In this document: positions 1 to 5,062 of the stretch, one piece after another | How positions within the stretch are numbered: position 1 is the first letter of the stretch | Layout: each line of letters starts with the position of its first letter | Assembly: GCA_900553555.1 (NCBI GenBank) | Contig: USEG01000074.1 | Coordinates: 1 to 5,062, forward strand | Reading direction: 5' to 3' | DNA: 5,062 nt | Source of the DNA: an uncultured Clostridia bacterium | GTDB lineage: Bacteria; Bacillota; Clostridia; Christensenellales; Pumilibacteraceae | The notes under the pieces: model-generated | Database searches by the model: none | Seen by the model: only the letters and a program-made list of their open reading frames with translations | Told to the model about the DNA's origin: nothing | Made by a program: the position numbers and the translations under genes

Positions 1-1130
1 CCCGAACCGAATTTGAACGGCGCATACAGTAGCTGCGGCTGGGATATAAGCGTCGGCAGCCCCTGTACGAAGATAAAGCCGATGATAACGGCGAGCGAAA
101 GCGCCGTAACCGCTCCCGCGCAAATCGCCACAATTTTCCCTATAAGCGGCGCCTTGATTTTGTACGCGCAGGAGGCGAAGAAACTCTTTACCCGACGCGT
201 CCAAGAAAAAGACAGCCATTTGCGTTTACCCGACGACACGGTGACTTTTTTTACCACTTTTCCGGAGATGAAGGCAAACAGTATATTGATTATGAGCACG
301 AAAAACAGCAGCACAAGTCCGGTGGCGATTAAAGCGCCTTTTTGAACTTCTCCCGCGTAGCCCAGCTCGGTGACTATATTTGCGGTAAGCACGCGGAAGG
401 AAGAAAACAGTCCGTCCAATTCCGCGACGGAGTTGCCCGAAACCATGACCACCGCCATGGTTTCGCCCAGCGCGCGTCCTATGCCCAATACCAGCGACGC
501 GAATATTCCCGATTTCGCCGCGGGACACATTACCGAAAACACCGTGCGGCTGTGCGTCGAGCCCAGCGCCACCGAGCCTTCGTAATAGCTTTGCGGAACG
601 GCCTCGAGACTGGTGCGCGACAACGAGACGACGGTGGGCATTATCATTATGCCCAGCACCAGGGATGTGGCCAAAAGCCCGCTGCCGTCGTTGGGCGCTA
701 TCATTGCCAGCATGGGCAGCAAAAACACCATGCCGAAAAAGCCGTAAATTATGGAGGGAATGCCCGCCAGCAGGTTGATTACGCTTATAAGCACGCGTTT
801 GAGTTTTTTCGGACAGTAGTATACGAGGAAAACCGCCGTGAAGAATCCGGTAATGCCGCCTATAATAAGCGCTCCCGCCGTAGCGGCGAAAGTGCCGGCT
901 ATCATGTAGGCAATTCCGTACGAACCGGTGAGGGACTGGTCGTAAGTAGCCTCTCTGTCCGGCGCCCATTTGTTGCCGAACAGGAAATTAAAAAATCCTA
1001 TTTTGTTTAATGCGGGAATGCTTTCGGCTATTAAAAAACCGAAAATTGCGACAACGGAGATTATTGAGATAACTGCCGCTGCCGCAAATATCGACTTCCC
1101 TATTTTATCAGAAGTTTTAGTTTGAGCCAT
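1..1130 (-). CDS. pstC: Phosphate ABC transporter permease, PstC fused to the start of PstA (partial, runs off the left edge)
   Basis: Inner-membrane permease of the Pst phosphate importer; it would pair with the PstS receptor encoded just upstream and a PstB ATPase not in the window. The visible 376 codons start at ATG 1130, preceded by AAGGA (1137-1141) at 6 nt spacing. Residues 1-290 are a full PstC: TM helix about 14-36, PstC hallmark LAGIPSIIYGFFG (121-133), and the cytoplasmic EAA-type loop about 178-226 (EGSVALGS, PAAKSGI, GRALGETMA). The frame then continues without stop through a basic linker (about 291-330) into a new TM helix (333-355) followed by GLPTL (357-361), which resembles the N-terminus of PstA. 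No Met codon occurs in this frame after residue 229, so a separate PstA start is unlikely. PstC alone is usually near 280-320 residues. PstC identity is very likely; the fusion is strongly suggested, but most of the PstA half is outside the window. Confidence 0.9.
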   Translation of the reverse strand, partial: MAQTKTSDKIGKSIFAAAAVISIISVVAIFGFLIAESIPALNKIGFFNFLFGNKWAPDREATYDQSLTGSYGIAYMIAGTFAATAGALIIGGITGFFTAVFLVYYCPKKLKRVLISVINLLAGIPSIIYGFFGMVFLLPMLAMIAPNDGSGLLATSLVLGIMIMPTVVSLSRTSLEAVPQSYYEGSVALGSTHSRTVFSVMCPAAKSGIFASLVLGIGRALGETMAVVMVSGNSVAELDGLFSSFRVLTANIVTELGYAGEVQKGALIATGLVLLFFVLIINILFAFISGKVVKKVTVSSGKRKWLSFSWTRRVKSFFASCAYKIKAPLIGKIVAICAGAVTALSLAVIIGFIFVQGLPTLISQPQLLYAPFKFGS

Positions 1131-1154
1131 ATTTAATCCTTATTTTCATGTATA

Positions 1155-2102
1155 TTATTTTGTAAGTTCGCTGAATTTCGTTATGTTTCCGGTGTAGATC
1201 TGATAGAGTTCGTTGAGGGTAAGGTCATCGACGATGTCGTTGGCGTTGTTTACGATTACGGCAACCGCGTCGAGGCAGACGTTAAAGCTCGTGATTTTGT
1301 CGTTTACGACAGCTGCCGACGAAAGACCGATGGTGCTTCCCGCAGTGTCGTTTTCCACGGCGCTTACGCCGGTGGAAGAACCCTGAAGTTCAATATCGAA
1401 TATGGTAAGCGGATCGGATACTCCGTAAAGTTCCGCATAAGCCGCCATGGCGGATTCGATGAATTTTTCCATGGAAGTGGAGCCTCTTATGATGATTTTG
1501 CCGCCGGAAGGAAGCGAAGCCTGTTTGGTGTATTCGACAACTTCGATGGGCGAACCTTCGTTGCCGCGCTGAGCGGGGTCGGACAGATAAACTGTGCCGG
1601 CTTCGTCGCAATGCTGCTGAGAAGCGGAGCTCATAAGATAATTCATGAAATCCTGAGCGACGGGGGTAAGGGTAACGGAGTTATTGGTCATTACGACGAA
1701 CGGACGCTGTATTTTATACGTTCCGTCCAAAACCGTTGCGTTAGAGGGTGCGACGCCTTCGACTTTGACGGTTTTTATGCTATCGTTAACCGAACCGAGC
1801 GATATATAACCGATTGCCTGTTTTTCGGACGACACCTTGGTAAGAACGTCGCCGGTTTTGCTCAGAACGACGGCTTTATCGGTAGTACGATATACTTTTT
1901 CGCCGTTTTCGTCTTTTTCCTGCAGGTAGTGCGTTCCGTCCGTCACTACTTTATCAAACGCTTCTCTTGTGCCGCTTGCCAACTCTCTTGCGACCACGGT
2001 AATCTGCTTATCGGGATCGAACGAGTTGTTGCAGCCCGCAAACGTAAAGGCCATTACAAAGGCCATAACTGCGGCTAAAATTGTGATAACTGTCTTTTTC
2101 AT
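1155..2102 (-). CDS. pstS: Phosphate-binding lipoprotein PstS with circularly permuted domain order
   Basis: Extracytoplasmic phosphate receptor of the Pst importer, 315 residues. A lipoprotein signal peptide (1-23) ends in the lipobox FAGC with C24 as the lipidated residue, so the protein is membrane-anchored on the outside. Motif order is rotated relative to ordinary PstS. First comes the usual second half: ITVVARELASGTREAF (34-49), AIGYISLGS (96-104), VEGVAP (114-119), YKIQRPF (129-135) and the FMNYLMSSASQQ helix (152-163). A linker of about 35 residues follows, then the usual first half: GSTSMEKF (207-214), GSSTG (241-245), GLSSAAV (259-265), CLDAVAVIVNN (276-286) and LTLNELYQIYTGNIT (294-308), ending a few residues later. 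Each motif occurs once, so this is not a tandem duplication. The acidic residue of the E. coli RADGSGT loop is Leu (L41). The start at 2102 is chosen because the signal peptide begins there after AAGGAG; 2138 and 2129 are poorer starts. It is first in the operon, 24 nt before the permease. Confidence 0.93.
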   Translation of the reverse strand: MKKTVITILAAVMAFVMAFTFAGCNNSFDPDKQITVVARELASGTREAFDKVVTDGTHYLQEKDENGEKVYRTTDKAVVLSKTGDVLTKVSSEKQAIGYISLGSVNDSIKTVKVEGVAPSNATVLDGTYKIQRPFVVMTNNSVTLTPVAQDFMNYLMSSASQQHCDEAGTVYLSDPAQRGNEGSPIEVVEYTKQASLPSGGKIIIRGSTSMEKFIESAMAAYAELYGVSDPLTIFDIELQGSSTGVSAVENDTAGSTIGLSSAAVVNDKITSFNVCLDAVAVIVNNANDIVDDLTLNELYQIYTGNITKFSELTK

Positions 2103-2113
2103 AAATTTTTTTT

Positions 2114-2119
2114 CTCCTT
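2114..2119 (-). promoter_or_regulatory. Ribosome binding site that fixes the pstS start
   Basis: AAGGAG lies 11 nt upstream of ATG 2102 on the minus strand, a slightly long spacing filled by an A-rich stretch (eight A then TTT). It decides between three in-frame ATGs. Starts at 2138 and 2129 would place this site inside the coding region, add a non-signal-like basic leader (MWSMKKQGEKKF) before the lipoprotein signal, and lie in or next to the predicted -10 box. Confidence 0.75.
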
Positions 2120-2136
2120 GTTTTTTCATCGACCAC

Positions 2137-2142
2137 ATTATA
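2137..2142 (-). promoter_or_regulatory. Probable -10 box of the pst operon promoter
   Basis: A perfect TATAAT faces pstS and would start transcription near 2130, giving a leader of about 28 nt before ATG 2102. No acceptable -35 sits at the usual 16-18 bp; the nearest, TTGATA (2169-2164), is 21 bp away. A good -10 with a poor -35 is what one expects of an activator-dependent promoter, and it fits the repeat cluster further upstream. Assigned by eye. Confidence 0.5.
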
Positions 2143-2175
2143 ACGCAGCCGATATATTCGCGCTATCAATATTGA

Positions 2176-2203
2176 GTAGCGTAAACGTAAAGTTTTTGTA
2201 AAG
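2176..2203 (-). promoter_or_regulatory. Candidate Pho box (PhoP/PhoB-type direct repeats) upstream of pstS
   Basis: Reading toward pstS, CTTTAC occurs at 2203-2198 and again at 2192-2187, exactly 11 bp apart with an A-only spacer. A weaker third copy, CGCTAC, falls in the same register at 2181-2176. An extra GTTTAC (2186-2181) directly follows the second repeat. Direct 6-7 bp repeats at 11 bp period are the known format of PhoB and PhoP sites (E. coli CTGTCAT, Bacillus TTAACA-like), and pst operons are classic targets. The cluster ends 33 bp before the TATAAT, further than in E. coli pst, so the position is imperfect. It could also be chance in AT-rich DNA. Confidence 0.45.
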
Positions 2204-2302
2204 TCGGCGCTGTTTGCCGTATAAAGGCACAATGCGTTTTGATATAAGGCCGATAAACGAGAAAAGTCGCCGCGTAAATTCGCAAAAATGTACTTTTCGC
2301 GA

Positions 2303-2331
2303 TGGACAAACGATTTTTTTAATGTTATAAT
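2303..2331 (+). promoter_or_regulatory. Strong vegetative (sigma-A type) promoter for the metallophosphoesterase-degV-MATE unit
   Basis: The -35 TGGACA (2303-2308) and the -10 TATAAT (2326-2331) are separated by exactly 17 bp. The -10 carries the extended TGn element (TG at 2323-2324). Transcription would begin near 2338, leaving a leader of roughly 26 nt with GGAG (2352-2355) 8 nt before ATG 2364. One mismatch from consensus at -35, none at -10. It is the best promoter in the window and suggests constitutive rather than activator-dependent expression. Confidence 0.75.
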
Positions 2332-2363
2332 AAGCATAACAAATAACAGACGGAGCGATTATT

Positions 2364-3449
2364 ATGGATTTTTTATACTGCAAACCCAATGTTCTTATTA
2401 TAAACAGTCAATACGAAATCATTCTAAACACCGTGGAAGAAGGCGTTGTATATATAAAGATAGGAAGGCGCGTCTTTTACGAAAACCACACGGGCATAAT
2501 GCCCAGCGTAAGTCTTGTGCACAAATTCCGCGTGCCGCAAAAACTGTTGGACGAGCAAAAACGGTACACGGTATTTTATAAGCGCGTTTTCGACAGAAAA
2601 ATCAATTTTCCCGTCGTCGGCGAGTTGCAAAGTGCGTCGTTTGCCTTCCGTCCCATAGAAAAAACCGACGAAATAAATGTTTTTTACATTGCGGATATAC
2701 ATACGGCATGGGAAAAAGCCGAAAGCGTGTCGCGCTATTACGGCGACGACCTGGATTTATATATAGTAAACGGCGACTTCGGAGAGAGCAGCAGCCTGGA
2801 AAATCTGCGCGATCTCAATAGACTTATAGGCAATGTCACTCACGGCGAAATTCCCGCGGTAGTGGGACGCGGCAATCACGATACCCGCGGCAAATACGCC
2901 GAAAAAGTCACCGATTATATGGCGACAAACGACGGGCGAGCCTACTTTTCTTTTTCCGCCGGGCAGGTATGGGGCATGGTTTTCGACTGCGGCGAGGACA
3001 AATTAGACGATCATCCCGAGTACCGCTCGCTAAATTATTTTGAAAAATACAGAAAGGACGAGTTGGCTTTTCTGCGCCGTACAAAGCCGGAAGACAAGAC
3101 GTTCAGGTTTGCCGTGTGCCACGTGCCGTTTATGAGCTCGGTCGCTATGTGCGGCATATTCGACATAATGCCCGACCTGTACAGGAAGTGGGGCAAGGAA
3201 GCCGACCGTATGGGCTTTGAGTTTATGCTGTGCGGCCACACGCACAAAACACAATACATTGCTCCCGGCGACGAAAGCGACAAGTTTTGCCACAGCTATC
3301 CCGTCATAGTGGGAGTAACGCGCACCGACGACTATTTGTCCGGCTGCGCGGTGCAGCTAAAGAAGAGCGGTTCGGTCATGCGCTTTGTCGGCAGCGACGG
3401 CAAAGTATCGCCGCTGTACGGCATAACAGACGGCAAAGAGATAAAATAA
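2364..3449 (+). CDS. Metallophosphoesterase (calcineurin-like), purple-acid-phosphatase-like, probably cytoplasmic
   Basis: Predicted two-metal phosphoesterase of 361 residues; substrate unknown. All signature blocks of the family are present in order: DIH (D111, H113), GD (D138), GNHD (N171, H172, D173), CHVPF (H253) and GHTH (H292, H294), so the metal centre looks complete. Residues 1-100 look like the beta-sandwich domain that precedes the catalytic domain in purple acid phosphatases (VVYIKIGRRVFYE, then VHKFRVPQKLLDEQKRYTVF). No signal peptide or TM helix is visible, so a cytoplasmic location is inferred. ATG 2364 is preceded by GGAG at 8 nt and follows a strong promoter. It is divergent from pstS and 31 nt upstream of the DegV gene. 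A phosphate-scavenging job is a possibility from context only; phosphodiesterase activity on nucleotides or phospholipids is equally possible. Confidence 0.88.
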   Translation: MDFLYCKPNVLIINSQYEIILNTVEEGVVYIKIGRRVFYENHTGIMPSVSLVHKFRVPQKLLDEQKRYTVFYKRVFDRKINFPVVGELQSASFAFRPIEKTDEINVFYIADIHTAWEKAESVSRYYGDDLDLYIVNGDFGESSSLENLRDLNRLIGNVTHGEIPAVVGRGNHDTRGKYAEKVTDYMATNDGRAYFSFSAGQVWGMVFDCGEDKLDDHPEYRSLNYFEKYRKDELAFLRRTKPEDKTFRFAVCHVPFMSSVAMCGIFDIMPDLYRKWGKEADRMGFEFMLCGHTHKTQYIAPGDESDKFCHSYPVIVGVTRTDDYLSGCAVQLKKSGSVMRFVGSDGKVSPLYGITDGKEIK

Positions 3450-3480
3450 TGCTAAAAATGGAGTTTACCAGGAGGTTTTT

Positions 3481-4329
3481 ATGTCTTTTAGCATAATTGT
3501 AGATTCTGCTTCGGATATCGAACTTGACGAAGCGCAGCAGATGGGAGTTACGTTGCTGCCGATGGAAATAACCTTCGGCGACGAGATATACCGCGACGGG
3601 TACGATTTGACGCACAGGGAATTTTTCGAAAAGCTCATCGAATGCAGCGATATTCCCAAAACCAGTCAGATTTCCGAATACGTCTTCGACGAGGCAATAA
3701 AAAAAGAGCTGGAAAAGTCGGACGCGGTTATTATTATAGTCATGTCCGGAAAATTGTCCGGTACGTGCGAACAGGCCCGTAAGGCGGCCAAAAAATACGA
3801 CGGCAAAGTCAAAGTGTTAGACAGCCTTAACGTCGCCATAGGCGAACGCATTCTCGTCGAATACGCGGTGCGGCTGCGCGGCGAAGGCAAAGGCCTTAAC
3901 GAAACTTACAATAGTTTGGAGGAAAAAAAGAAAAAAATCCGGCTGCTGGCGCTGCTGGACACGCTGAAATATTTGCGAAAAGGCGGACGCATATCGGCCA
4001 TCAAGTGCATTTCGGGCGAGCTGCTTAACATTAAGCCGGTTATATCGCTGCATGGCGGAGAAATAAAGCTTGTAGGCAAGGCGATAGGTTCGAAAAAGGG
4101 TAACAACCTATTGAATAAGATGATAGAAAGCACCGCCGGCATCGACTTTACCATGCCGTACGGCTGTGTGTACAGCGGTCTTGACTCCACGGTGCTGGAC
4201 AAGTATATATCCGACTGCTCTCATATATGGAAGGAGCACACTCAAGCCGTTCCAAGGCGTATGATAGGCGCGACCATCGGCACGCACATAGGGCCGGGCG
4301 CAATAGCCGTGGCATTTTTCGAAAAATAA
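3481..4329 (+). CDS. degV: DegV family protein (fatty-acid-binding, FakB-like)
   Basis: A 282-residue cytoplasmic protein matching the DegV family in length and motifs: IIVDSASD (5-12), PKTSQIS (59-65, the usual PTTSQPS), MSGKLSGTCEQA (88-99), LDTLKYLRKGGRIS (159-172), LNIKPVIS (182-189) and a C-terminal IGTHIGPGAIAVAF (266-279). Family members studied as FakB bind a single fatty acid and present it to the FakA kinase for phosphorylation and entry into phospholipid synthesis. Whether this one does so is inference, since no FakA gene is in view and many Clostridia carry several DegV paralogues of unknown role. ATG 3481 follows a strong AGGAGG (3470-3475) at 5 nt. The gene lies 31 nt after the metallophosphoesterase stop and 52 nt before the MATE gene, with no terminator on either side, so co-transcription is likely. 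Confidence 0.95.
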   Translation: MSFSIIVDSASDIELDEAQQMGVTLLPMEITFGDEIYRDGYDLTHREFFEKLIECSDIPKTSQISEYVFDEAIKKELEKSDAVIIIVMSGKLSGTCEQARKAAKKYDGKVKVLDSLNVAIGERILVEYAVRLRGEGKGLNETYNSLEEKKKKIRLLALLDTLKYLRKGGRISAIKCISGELLNIKPVISLHGGEIKLVGKAIGSKKGNNLLNKMIESTAGIDFTMPYGCVYSGLDSTVLDKYISDCSHIWKEHTQAVPRRMIGATIGTHIGPGAIAVAFFEK

Positions 4330-4381
4330 CCGAGCGGACGACGAGGGAAAGTGACGAAAACTTTATTAAAGAGGTTTTGCA

Positions 4382-5062
4382 ATGGAAAATTCGTCGCACA
4401 AAAAAACTTTGTTCCAAAAGTTGGCGGAATGGGCAAAGCCCGTGGACCTCACCGTGGGCAAGCCGTGGAGAGTAATAATAAAATATTCCGTCCCGATAAT
4501 GTTATCGTATTTTCTGCAGCAGATTTATGTGCTGACCGACGCTATCATCTGCGGACAGGTGCTCTCGGCGGAACAAGTGGCGGGAGTAAACGACACTTTC
4601 CCGCTGACATTTATATTTTTGCAGTTCGCCTTCGGCTGTACGGCGGGATTCAGCGTAATAACGGCGCGTAAAGTGGGCACAAACGATATAAGCGGAGTGA
4701 GAAAATCTTTTATGACTCAGGTGTACCTGTCGGTGCTTATATCGGCGGTGCTCGCGCTGGCGTCCACGCTGCTGCTGACGCCCATGCTGCGGCTTATAAA
4801 CGTAACTTCCGAAAACCCCGAGGTGTACAACGCGGCGTACGAATATTGTTTCGTTATTTTCATCGGCATTATCGCGCAGATGGGTTACAACTTTATATGC
4901 GGCATCCTGCGGGCATACGGCGATTCGGTAACGCCGTTGGTATTTTTGGTCATTTCCACGCTGCTAAACGTCGGGCTGGACATATTGTTTCTCGTGCCGC
5001 TGGGTATGGGTCCTATCGGCGCGGCGATAGCGACGGTGCTCGCCCAGCTTATCAGCGTGGCG
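4382..5062 (+). CDS. MATE family efflux transporter (partial, N-terminal half)
   Basis: Multidrug and toxic compound extrusion transporter, normally about 440-460 residues with 12 TM helices and driven by Na+ or H+; 227 residues are visible before the right edge. A cytoplasmic leader (1-28) precedes hydrophobic segments at roughly 32-56, 70-96, 112-136, 152-176 and 184-208, with a sixth beginning near 211. Family-like stretches include SVPIMLSYFLQQIYVLTDAI (TM1, with D53 at the position of the functionally important TM1 Asp of MATE proteins), FGCTAGFSVITARKVGTND (TM2 to loop) and GILRAYGDSVTPL (174-186). ATG 4382 has AAGAGG (4369-4374) at 7 nt. It is the third gene of the right-hand unit. The substrate cannot be told from sequence; closest in style to the DinF/NorM-like MATE proteins common in Clostridia. 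Confidence 0.9.
   Translation, partial: MENSSHKKTLFQKLAEWAKPVDLTVGKPWRVIIKYSVPIMLSYFLQQIYVLTDAIICGQVLSAEQVAGVNDTFPLTFIFLQFAFGCTAGFSVITARKVGTNDISGVRKSFMTQVYLSVLISAVLALASTLLLTPMLRLINVTSENPEVYNAAYEYCFVIFIGIIAQMGYNFICGILRAYGDSVTPLVFLVISTLLNVGLDILFLVPLGMGPIGAAIATVLAQLISVA

Follow-up and report, generated by a model that had tools for sequence, protein, structure and literature searches.

A circularly permuted form of the phosphate receptor PstS encoded at the head of a pst operon in Clostridia

INTRODUCTION

Permuted chain orders are already known among bacterial substrate-binding proteins. Within the type II fold, a circular permutation has been described between OpuAC on the one side and ProX and ModA on the other (receptors for glycine betaine and molybdate; PMC2395249), and MglB-2 (Tp0684) of Treponema pallidum is a receptor, tethered to the membrane and permuted in nature, that has relatives among Gram-positive bacteria; its authors raise the idea that the tethering might explain the permuted order (PMC4990184). 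Here we describe a permuted form of the phosphate receptor PstS, encoded by a 5,062-nucleotide stretch of DNA (contig USEG01000074.1, positions 1 to 5,062, of assembly GCA_900553555.1) from an uncultured Clostridia bacterium of the family Pumilibacteraceae; this whole stretch is referred to as the window. The protein differs from MglB-2, which has a type I fold and binds glucose (PMC4990184). The model predicted for the window protein can be aligned with OpuAC without reordering of either chain.

Closer comparisons are provided by other PstS proteins. The canonical receptors of C. perfringens (PDB entries 4Q8R/4GD5), V. cholerae (1TWY), and E. coli (1IXH) share with the window protein homologous halves, ligand motifs, a two-lobed type II fold, and a pst operon, but differ in the order of the halves and, as we infer, in which lobe carries the chain termini and the anchoring lipid (lobe I, as opposed to lobe II in the window protein). 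In contrast, PstS2 of Streptococcus pneumoniae (SP_2084) is colinear with the window protein and has the same cut, with a linker that, judging from alignment gaps, is shorter; since 2012, the PDB has contained a permuted PstS, as entry 4H1X. A canonical PstS1 exists in S. pneumoniae beside PstS2, and the relative Streptococcus varani likewise has a canonical PstS; the S. varani locus (L080) also differs from the window in that, by frame lengths, pstC and pstA are separate frames. No published text calling PstS2 or 4H1X permuted was found in the literature searched, and none of the papers linking PstS with permutation was on this subject by its title or the start of its abstract. For the 2025 PDB entry 9L8J, a cyanobacterial phosphate-binding protein with “evolutionary hotspot” in its title, no accompanying paper was found. 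Relative to the literature searched, the recognition of the PstS2 type as a permuted PstS, its spread in Clostridia, and its near-exclusion with the canonical form are new, although an earlier mention, for example, in subscription journals, is possible.

RESULTS

The two halves of PstS are present once each, in swapped order. A preliminary description, made from the sequence alone, had placed the gene in the frame that we also find, which runs from an ATG at position 2102 to a stop at 1155 and encodes 315 amino acids. AAGGAG lies 11 bases upstream of this ATG; an alternative, longer frame of the same gene starts from an ATG at 2138. Along the chain, Cys24 is followed by VARELASGTR (ending at residue 46), AIGYISLGS, RPF, and the old C-terminal helix, all in the old C-terminal half, and then, beyond a linker, by GSTS (residues 207 to 210), GSS, the LDAVAVIVN crossover strand, and the terminal IYTGNITKF helix of the old N-terminal half. 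The same order, with a single copy of every motif, had been claimed in the preliminary description, and its estimate of about 35 residues for the linker agrees with the secondary structure of an AlphaFold2 model (Table 1). This linker exceeds that of most permuted proteins in length; across 84 of them, the gap separating the matched halves is 14 to 32 residues. Cys24 is conserved without exception in 16 aligned sequences and SGTR in 26, both counts including the window.

Linear family profiles match the window protein in two stretches. The best stretch for TIGR02136 places residues 30 to 169 on positions 160 to 291 of 295, and that for PF12849 places residues 194 to 312 on positions 3 to 125 of 267. 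The protein lies above the cut-off of PF12849, the broader family (80.4 versus 27 bits); counting against its assignment to PstS, it misses the linear TIGR02136 cut-off (131.5 versus 206.6 bits). The sequences of 37 canonical PstS proteins were used to build a canonical profile, with which 86 permuted ones were searched (113 frames, reduced to 87 by merging identical ones and to 86 by removing one with a short half; two frames that match by one half only, in L015 and L132, were excluded from the profile sets). In a single copy, this profile splits on the window protein (115.9 and 72.0 bits). When doubled head to tail, as the preliminary description had proposed, it gives one junction-spanning match of 181.7 bits, at positions 118 to 362 of 494, which with a unit of 247 positions uses nearly every canonical position once. 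The junction is crossed by 86 of the 86 permuted proteins and by none of the 37 canonical ones; residue shuffles reached at most 1.3 bits, 5 of 86 crossing the junction at this noise level. Reciprocally, all 37 canonical proteins span the junction of a doubled permuted profile. The window protein is therefore a PstS with its halves swapped in order, both homologous halves being present once when rotation is allowed, and the circular permutation suspected earlier is supported by the doubled profile, the predicted fold, and the colinear solved relative 4H1X. Such a swap would be near-neutral if the two halves were symmetric in sequence, but no symmetry of this kind was detected (hhalign probability of 0.3, against 0.1 to 1.4 for 20 column shuffles).

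In principle, a swapped order could be produced by an assembly or frameshift artefact, since windows derived from metagenome-assembled genomes can be chimeric, or by two unrelated half-genes lying next to each other. No evidence for either was found, and the window gene is one open frame. Moreover, the permuted order recurs in 84 of 85 sources, the remaining one being cut by a contig end, with the complete chromosome of Ruminococcus bicirculans (L019) among the 84, and in the crystallized protein 4H1X. Given colinear relatives in a complete genome and in a crystal structure, we rejected this explanation, which retains practically no probability.

The cut lies beyond the crossover. The AlphaFold2 model has the two-lobed type II binding-protein fold, and the chain is predicted to fold as a two-lobed receptor that is lipidated at Cys24. 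In the model, the crossover is a long strand (residues 270 to 285), followed by a helix (296 to 303) and the chain end at 315, and the first core strand is at 35 to 39; in a model of canonical PstS, the crossover strands (112 to 126) are followed by a helix (138 to 145) and then a strand (167 to 171). By this order of strands and helices, the cut therefore appears to sit in the loop that leads from the post-crossover helix into lobe II, ahead of its first core strand, and not at the crossover between the lobes, where the preliminary description had put it. This position falls inside domain II of E. coli PstS, which would place the lipid anchor and both new termini in lobe II, with lobe I now continuous and lobe II now split. 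The proposal that the anchor had moved would thus hold insofar as it leaves lobe I, but by the secondary structure of the model and the domain limits of E. coli PstS, its destination would be lobe II rather than the crossover strand. A change in how the receptor is tethered, also put forward in the preliminary description, would be a consequence of the swapped order.

The permuted pstS heads a pst operon. The frame that follows pstS encodes PstC, runs into an apparent PstA N terminus, and is open at the window edge (Table 1). Complete PstC-PstA fusions of 613 and 644 amino acids occupy the equivalent place in the relatives L006 and L010, respectively, with both halves above the curated cut-offs, and in L010 the fusion is followed by PstB and PhoU, which are likewise above their cut-offs. 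At six further loci (L008, L009, L011, L013, L014, and L016), frames of 596 to 773 amino acids, as judged by length only, stand at the place of the permease.

Upstream of pstS, a direct repeat reading CTTTACAAAAACTTTAC has an 11-bp period, in which it resembles Pho boxes. The window holds one match, compared with 0.06 expected with up to one mismatch; at least one match turned up in 12 of 200 shuffles. Within 300 bases upstream, a repeat reached by at most 5 of 100 base shuffles precedes 58 of 86 permuted genes, the scoring motif having been taken from the window, itself counted among the 86, and one of the 87 genes being without enough upstream sequence. Among 12 close relatives, 8 have the repeat and L009, L013, L014, and L016 do not. 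In the window, the repeat lies between pstS and a divergent metallophosphoesterase gene, a calcineurin-like phosphoesterase gene at 2364 to 3449 that stands head-to-head with pstS. Among frames of at least 150 residues in the relatives' loci, no relatives of the window's metallophosphoesterase or DegV genes were found beside pstS; only the window's own genes matched.

Table 1. Features of the permuted pstS locus in the window
Feature	Position	Strand	Basis
Permease gene after pstS: PstC (residues 8-291) into apparent PstA N terminus	3..1130	minus	TIGR02138, 268.2 bits
Permuted pstS gene, 315 aa, stop included	1155..2102	minus	ORF, family match, doubled-profile test
Old N-terminal PstS half, now last, residues 200-315	1158..1505	minus	profiles, doubled profile, rotated alignment
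Linker between old C and N termini, about residues 169-202	1497..1598	minus	AlphaFold2 secondary structure
Old C-terminal PstS half, now first, residues 30-174	1581..2015	minus	profile matches, doubled profile, rotated alignment
SGTR phosphate-binding motif, residues 43-46	1965..1976	minus	sequence
Signal peptide and lipobox (FAGC), residues 1-24, predicted lipidated Cys24	2031..2102	minus	sequence
Pho-box-like direct repeat CTTTACAAAAACTTTAC, 11-bp period, upstream of pstS	2187..2203	minus	one exact match

The phosphate-ligand motifs are retained. In a rotated alignment of 18 rows, the permuted rows keep GSTS/GSSS, GSS, the LDAVAV crossover (mostly DGIAV in the other rows), RE-x-x-SGTR, IGY-S, and RPF; by this alignment and by invariant columns, the phosphate-ligand motifs GSTS, GSS, and R-x-SGT are present. 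The phosphate ligands of X. citri PhoX are Ser34, Ser62, Asp80, Arg159, Gly164, Thr165, and Asn201 (PMC5439949). By our own mapping, Ser34, Ser62, Arg159, Gly164, and Thr165 lie in motifs kept by the permuted rows, and Asp80 maps to a Ser that is also found in 7 of 8 canonical rows. In the section of the PhoX paper that names the superposed structures, these include 4EXL (PstS1 of S. pneumoniae) and not 4H1X (PMC5439949). In S. pneumoniae, phosphate uptake was approximately 50% slower in a Pst1 and Pst2 double mutant, a drop not seen in the single mutants (PMC4913102). Because of the retained ligand motifs, the Pho-box-like repeat upstream, and these uptake data, phosphate reception would be the best-supported role. 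We consider it highly probable that the product of this gene is PstS in circularly permuted form, likely still capturing phosphate between its two lobes and passing it to the PstC-PstA permease.

Weighing against an unchanged phosphate site, five rows of the window clade have Ala or Ser after a Ser-Ser or Ala-Ser pair, a place taken by Arg in 12 of the 13 remaining rows; this replacement could mean a phosphate affinity differing from that of other PstS proteins. The site (the Arg of IGMSSREL elsewhere) is at 1308 to 1331 of the window, PstS residues 258 to 265, with equivalents in L006, L011, L013, and L016; by our own mapping, it adjoins the position of E. coli Asp56. Together with a crossover motif that has DA (as also in L019) in place of DG and with the long linker of the window protein, this replacement might point to a PstS-like receptor that has changed its ligand, for example, to another oxyanion or an organophosphate, and still serves a Pst-type permease. 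However, GSTS, GSS, R-SGTR, and RPF are kept, the neighbors PstC, PstA, PstB, and PhoU are above curated cut-offs, and the Pho-box-like repeat is present, and a changed ligand seems to us quite improbable.

The predicted lipid tether tends to be shorter in permuted receptors. Counted as the residues that separate the lipid Cys from the first core position to be matched, it has a median of 14 in permuted proteins (84 of 87 with a lipobox), versus 19 in canonical ones (35 of 37; Mann-Whitney p of 0.005, uncorrected for kinship). The tether is 2 to 6 residues long in the window and 9 of 12 close relatives, while the rule gives 10, 8, and 12 for L008, L009, and L014, having picked an earlier Cys of the signal peptide there. 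By the strand limits of the AlphaFold2 model, 10 residues lie between Cys24 and strand 35 in the window protein. These lengths suggest a shorter tether, placed on lobe II, as the physical difference from canonical PstS.

Permuted and canonical receptors rarely occur together. Relatives were found by scanning genome contigs with a permuted alignment query, with at least 583 of 594 candidate stretches confirmed and 80 loci kept. Together with four phage-labeled contigs and the window, these make up the 85 sources, of which 84 are permuted and 1 is truncated by the end of its contig, with no canonical one among them; the query being itself permuted, this is not a census. In the flanks of the 80 genome loci (up to 5 kb per side), no second, canonical pstS was found near the permuted gene. 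On contig C12 of genome G128, two permuted pstS genes stand in tandem (206226 to 208036). The four phage-labeled records (L001 to L004; MT838145, MT837061, MT837530, and MT837962, labeled Bacteriophage sp.) carry a permuted pstS, followed in L001, L003, and L004 by frames that read like further pst genes. Read from their frames, all four resemble bacterial contigs; a phage origin was therefore rejected, and they are likely bacterial contigs mislabeled as phage.

For a census, the canonical profile was run on 118 genomes of the class of R. bicirculans (Clostridia by organism name), giving 141 matches in 86 genomes. The permuted arrangement is present in 24 genomes (25 places), in line with the statement in the preliminary description that similarly ordered proteins exist in Clostridia; canonical PstS above the cut-off is present in 39, and both are present in 1 (G096; Fisher p of 4.6e-4 across all 118). 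Hence, 23 of the 24 permuted genomes are without a canonical PstS above the family cut-off. In the order of G001, a genome with a sequence closely related to the window, 14 of 59 genomes are permuted, 10 are canonical above the cut-off, and none is both. Two results speak against such an exclusion: under a looser rule (a canonical-order span of at least 240 positions), 56 genomes count as canonical and 5 of the 24 permuted ones are also canonical, 1 of them above the cut-off, and the non-overlap within the order of G001 reaches a Fisher p of only 0.098. Some permuted genomes of that order have canonical-order matches below the cut-off (195.4 bits in G302). In 12 host genomes selected for carrying a permuted pstS and searched directly, the canonical profile splits at the same place in every one (old N-terminal half ending at 154 to 167, old C-terminal half starting at 140 to 165); 2 of them also have a canonical PstS above the TIGR02136 cut-off, and 10 have no such match.

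Outside Clostridia, a full-length permuted match was found in at least 2 of 151 genomes of the class of S. varani, where, among the matches listed, canonical receptors hit the permuted profile as pieces in exchanged order. Of 59 genomes in the class to which a Coriobacteriia genome belongs, 8 have a full-length permuted match at an E value of 1e-40 or better.

DISCUSSION

A usual route to a circularly permuted protein is gene duplication with subsequent loss of the outer halves. Duplication of a canonical pstS and trimming of the ends would have given rise to the permuted pstS, most likely once, and the permuted form would then have assumed the role of PstS in many Clostridia. No duplication intermediate was found, although no systematic search for one was made. 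A quick tree of 47 rotated permuted rows (from 73 after removal of near-copies) and 34 of the 37 canonical rows does not favor a single origin: in it, the permuted rows fall within the canonical ones as two sets (36 and 11 rows), beside a canonical set of 7 rows and with open forks between. The same order could have arisen more than once at the same point if type II binding proteins are easily cut in the loop that precedes the first core strand in lobe II. However, a tree that holds the permuted rows together has a log-likelihood that is 44.2 higher (p-AU of 0.918), and the break falls at the same place in all 12 host genomes. Repeated origin is therefore rather unlikely, and a single origin, although short of proven, is most likely the better reading. 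In the quick tree, two permuted PstS proteins of the class Coriobacteriia, from L056 (genome G008) and L150 (G364), fall among Clostridia rows at weakly supported forks, a placement that hints at gene transfer.

It is possible, although we propose it only tentatively, that one ancient permutation gave rise to a second kind of phosphate receptor, which took the place of ordinary PstS across much of Clostridia and spread as far as Coriobacteriia and streptococci, and that the lobe II anchor changes docking such that receptor and permease come near to forming one unit. If this is true, anchoring on lobe II by a tether of a few residues in the window clade, where the PstC-PstA permease is a single chain, would alter how the lipid-bound receptor docks.

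In summary, although PstS is a textbook receptor, a permuted version of it serves 24 of the 118 genomes that were sampled from one large class. Some records label it only as “substrate-binding domain-containing protein,” and since the linear family profile TIGR02136 splits the permuted protein and leaves it below the cut-off, surveys of Pst systems that rely on such profiles will miss it. With permuted and ordinary receptors working on homologous permeases, nature offers a test of the role of the anchored lobe in docking and release.
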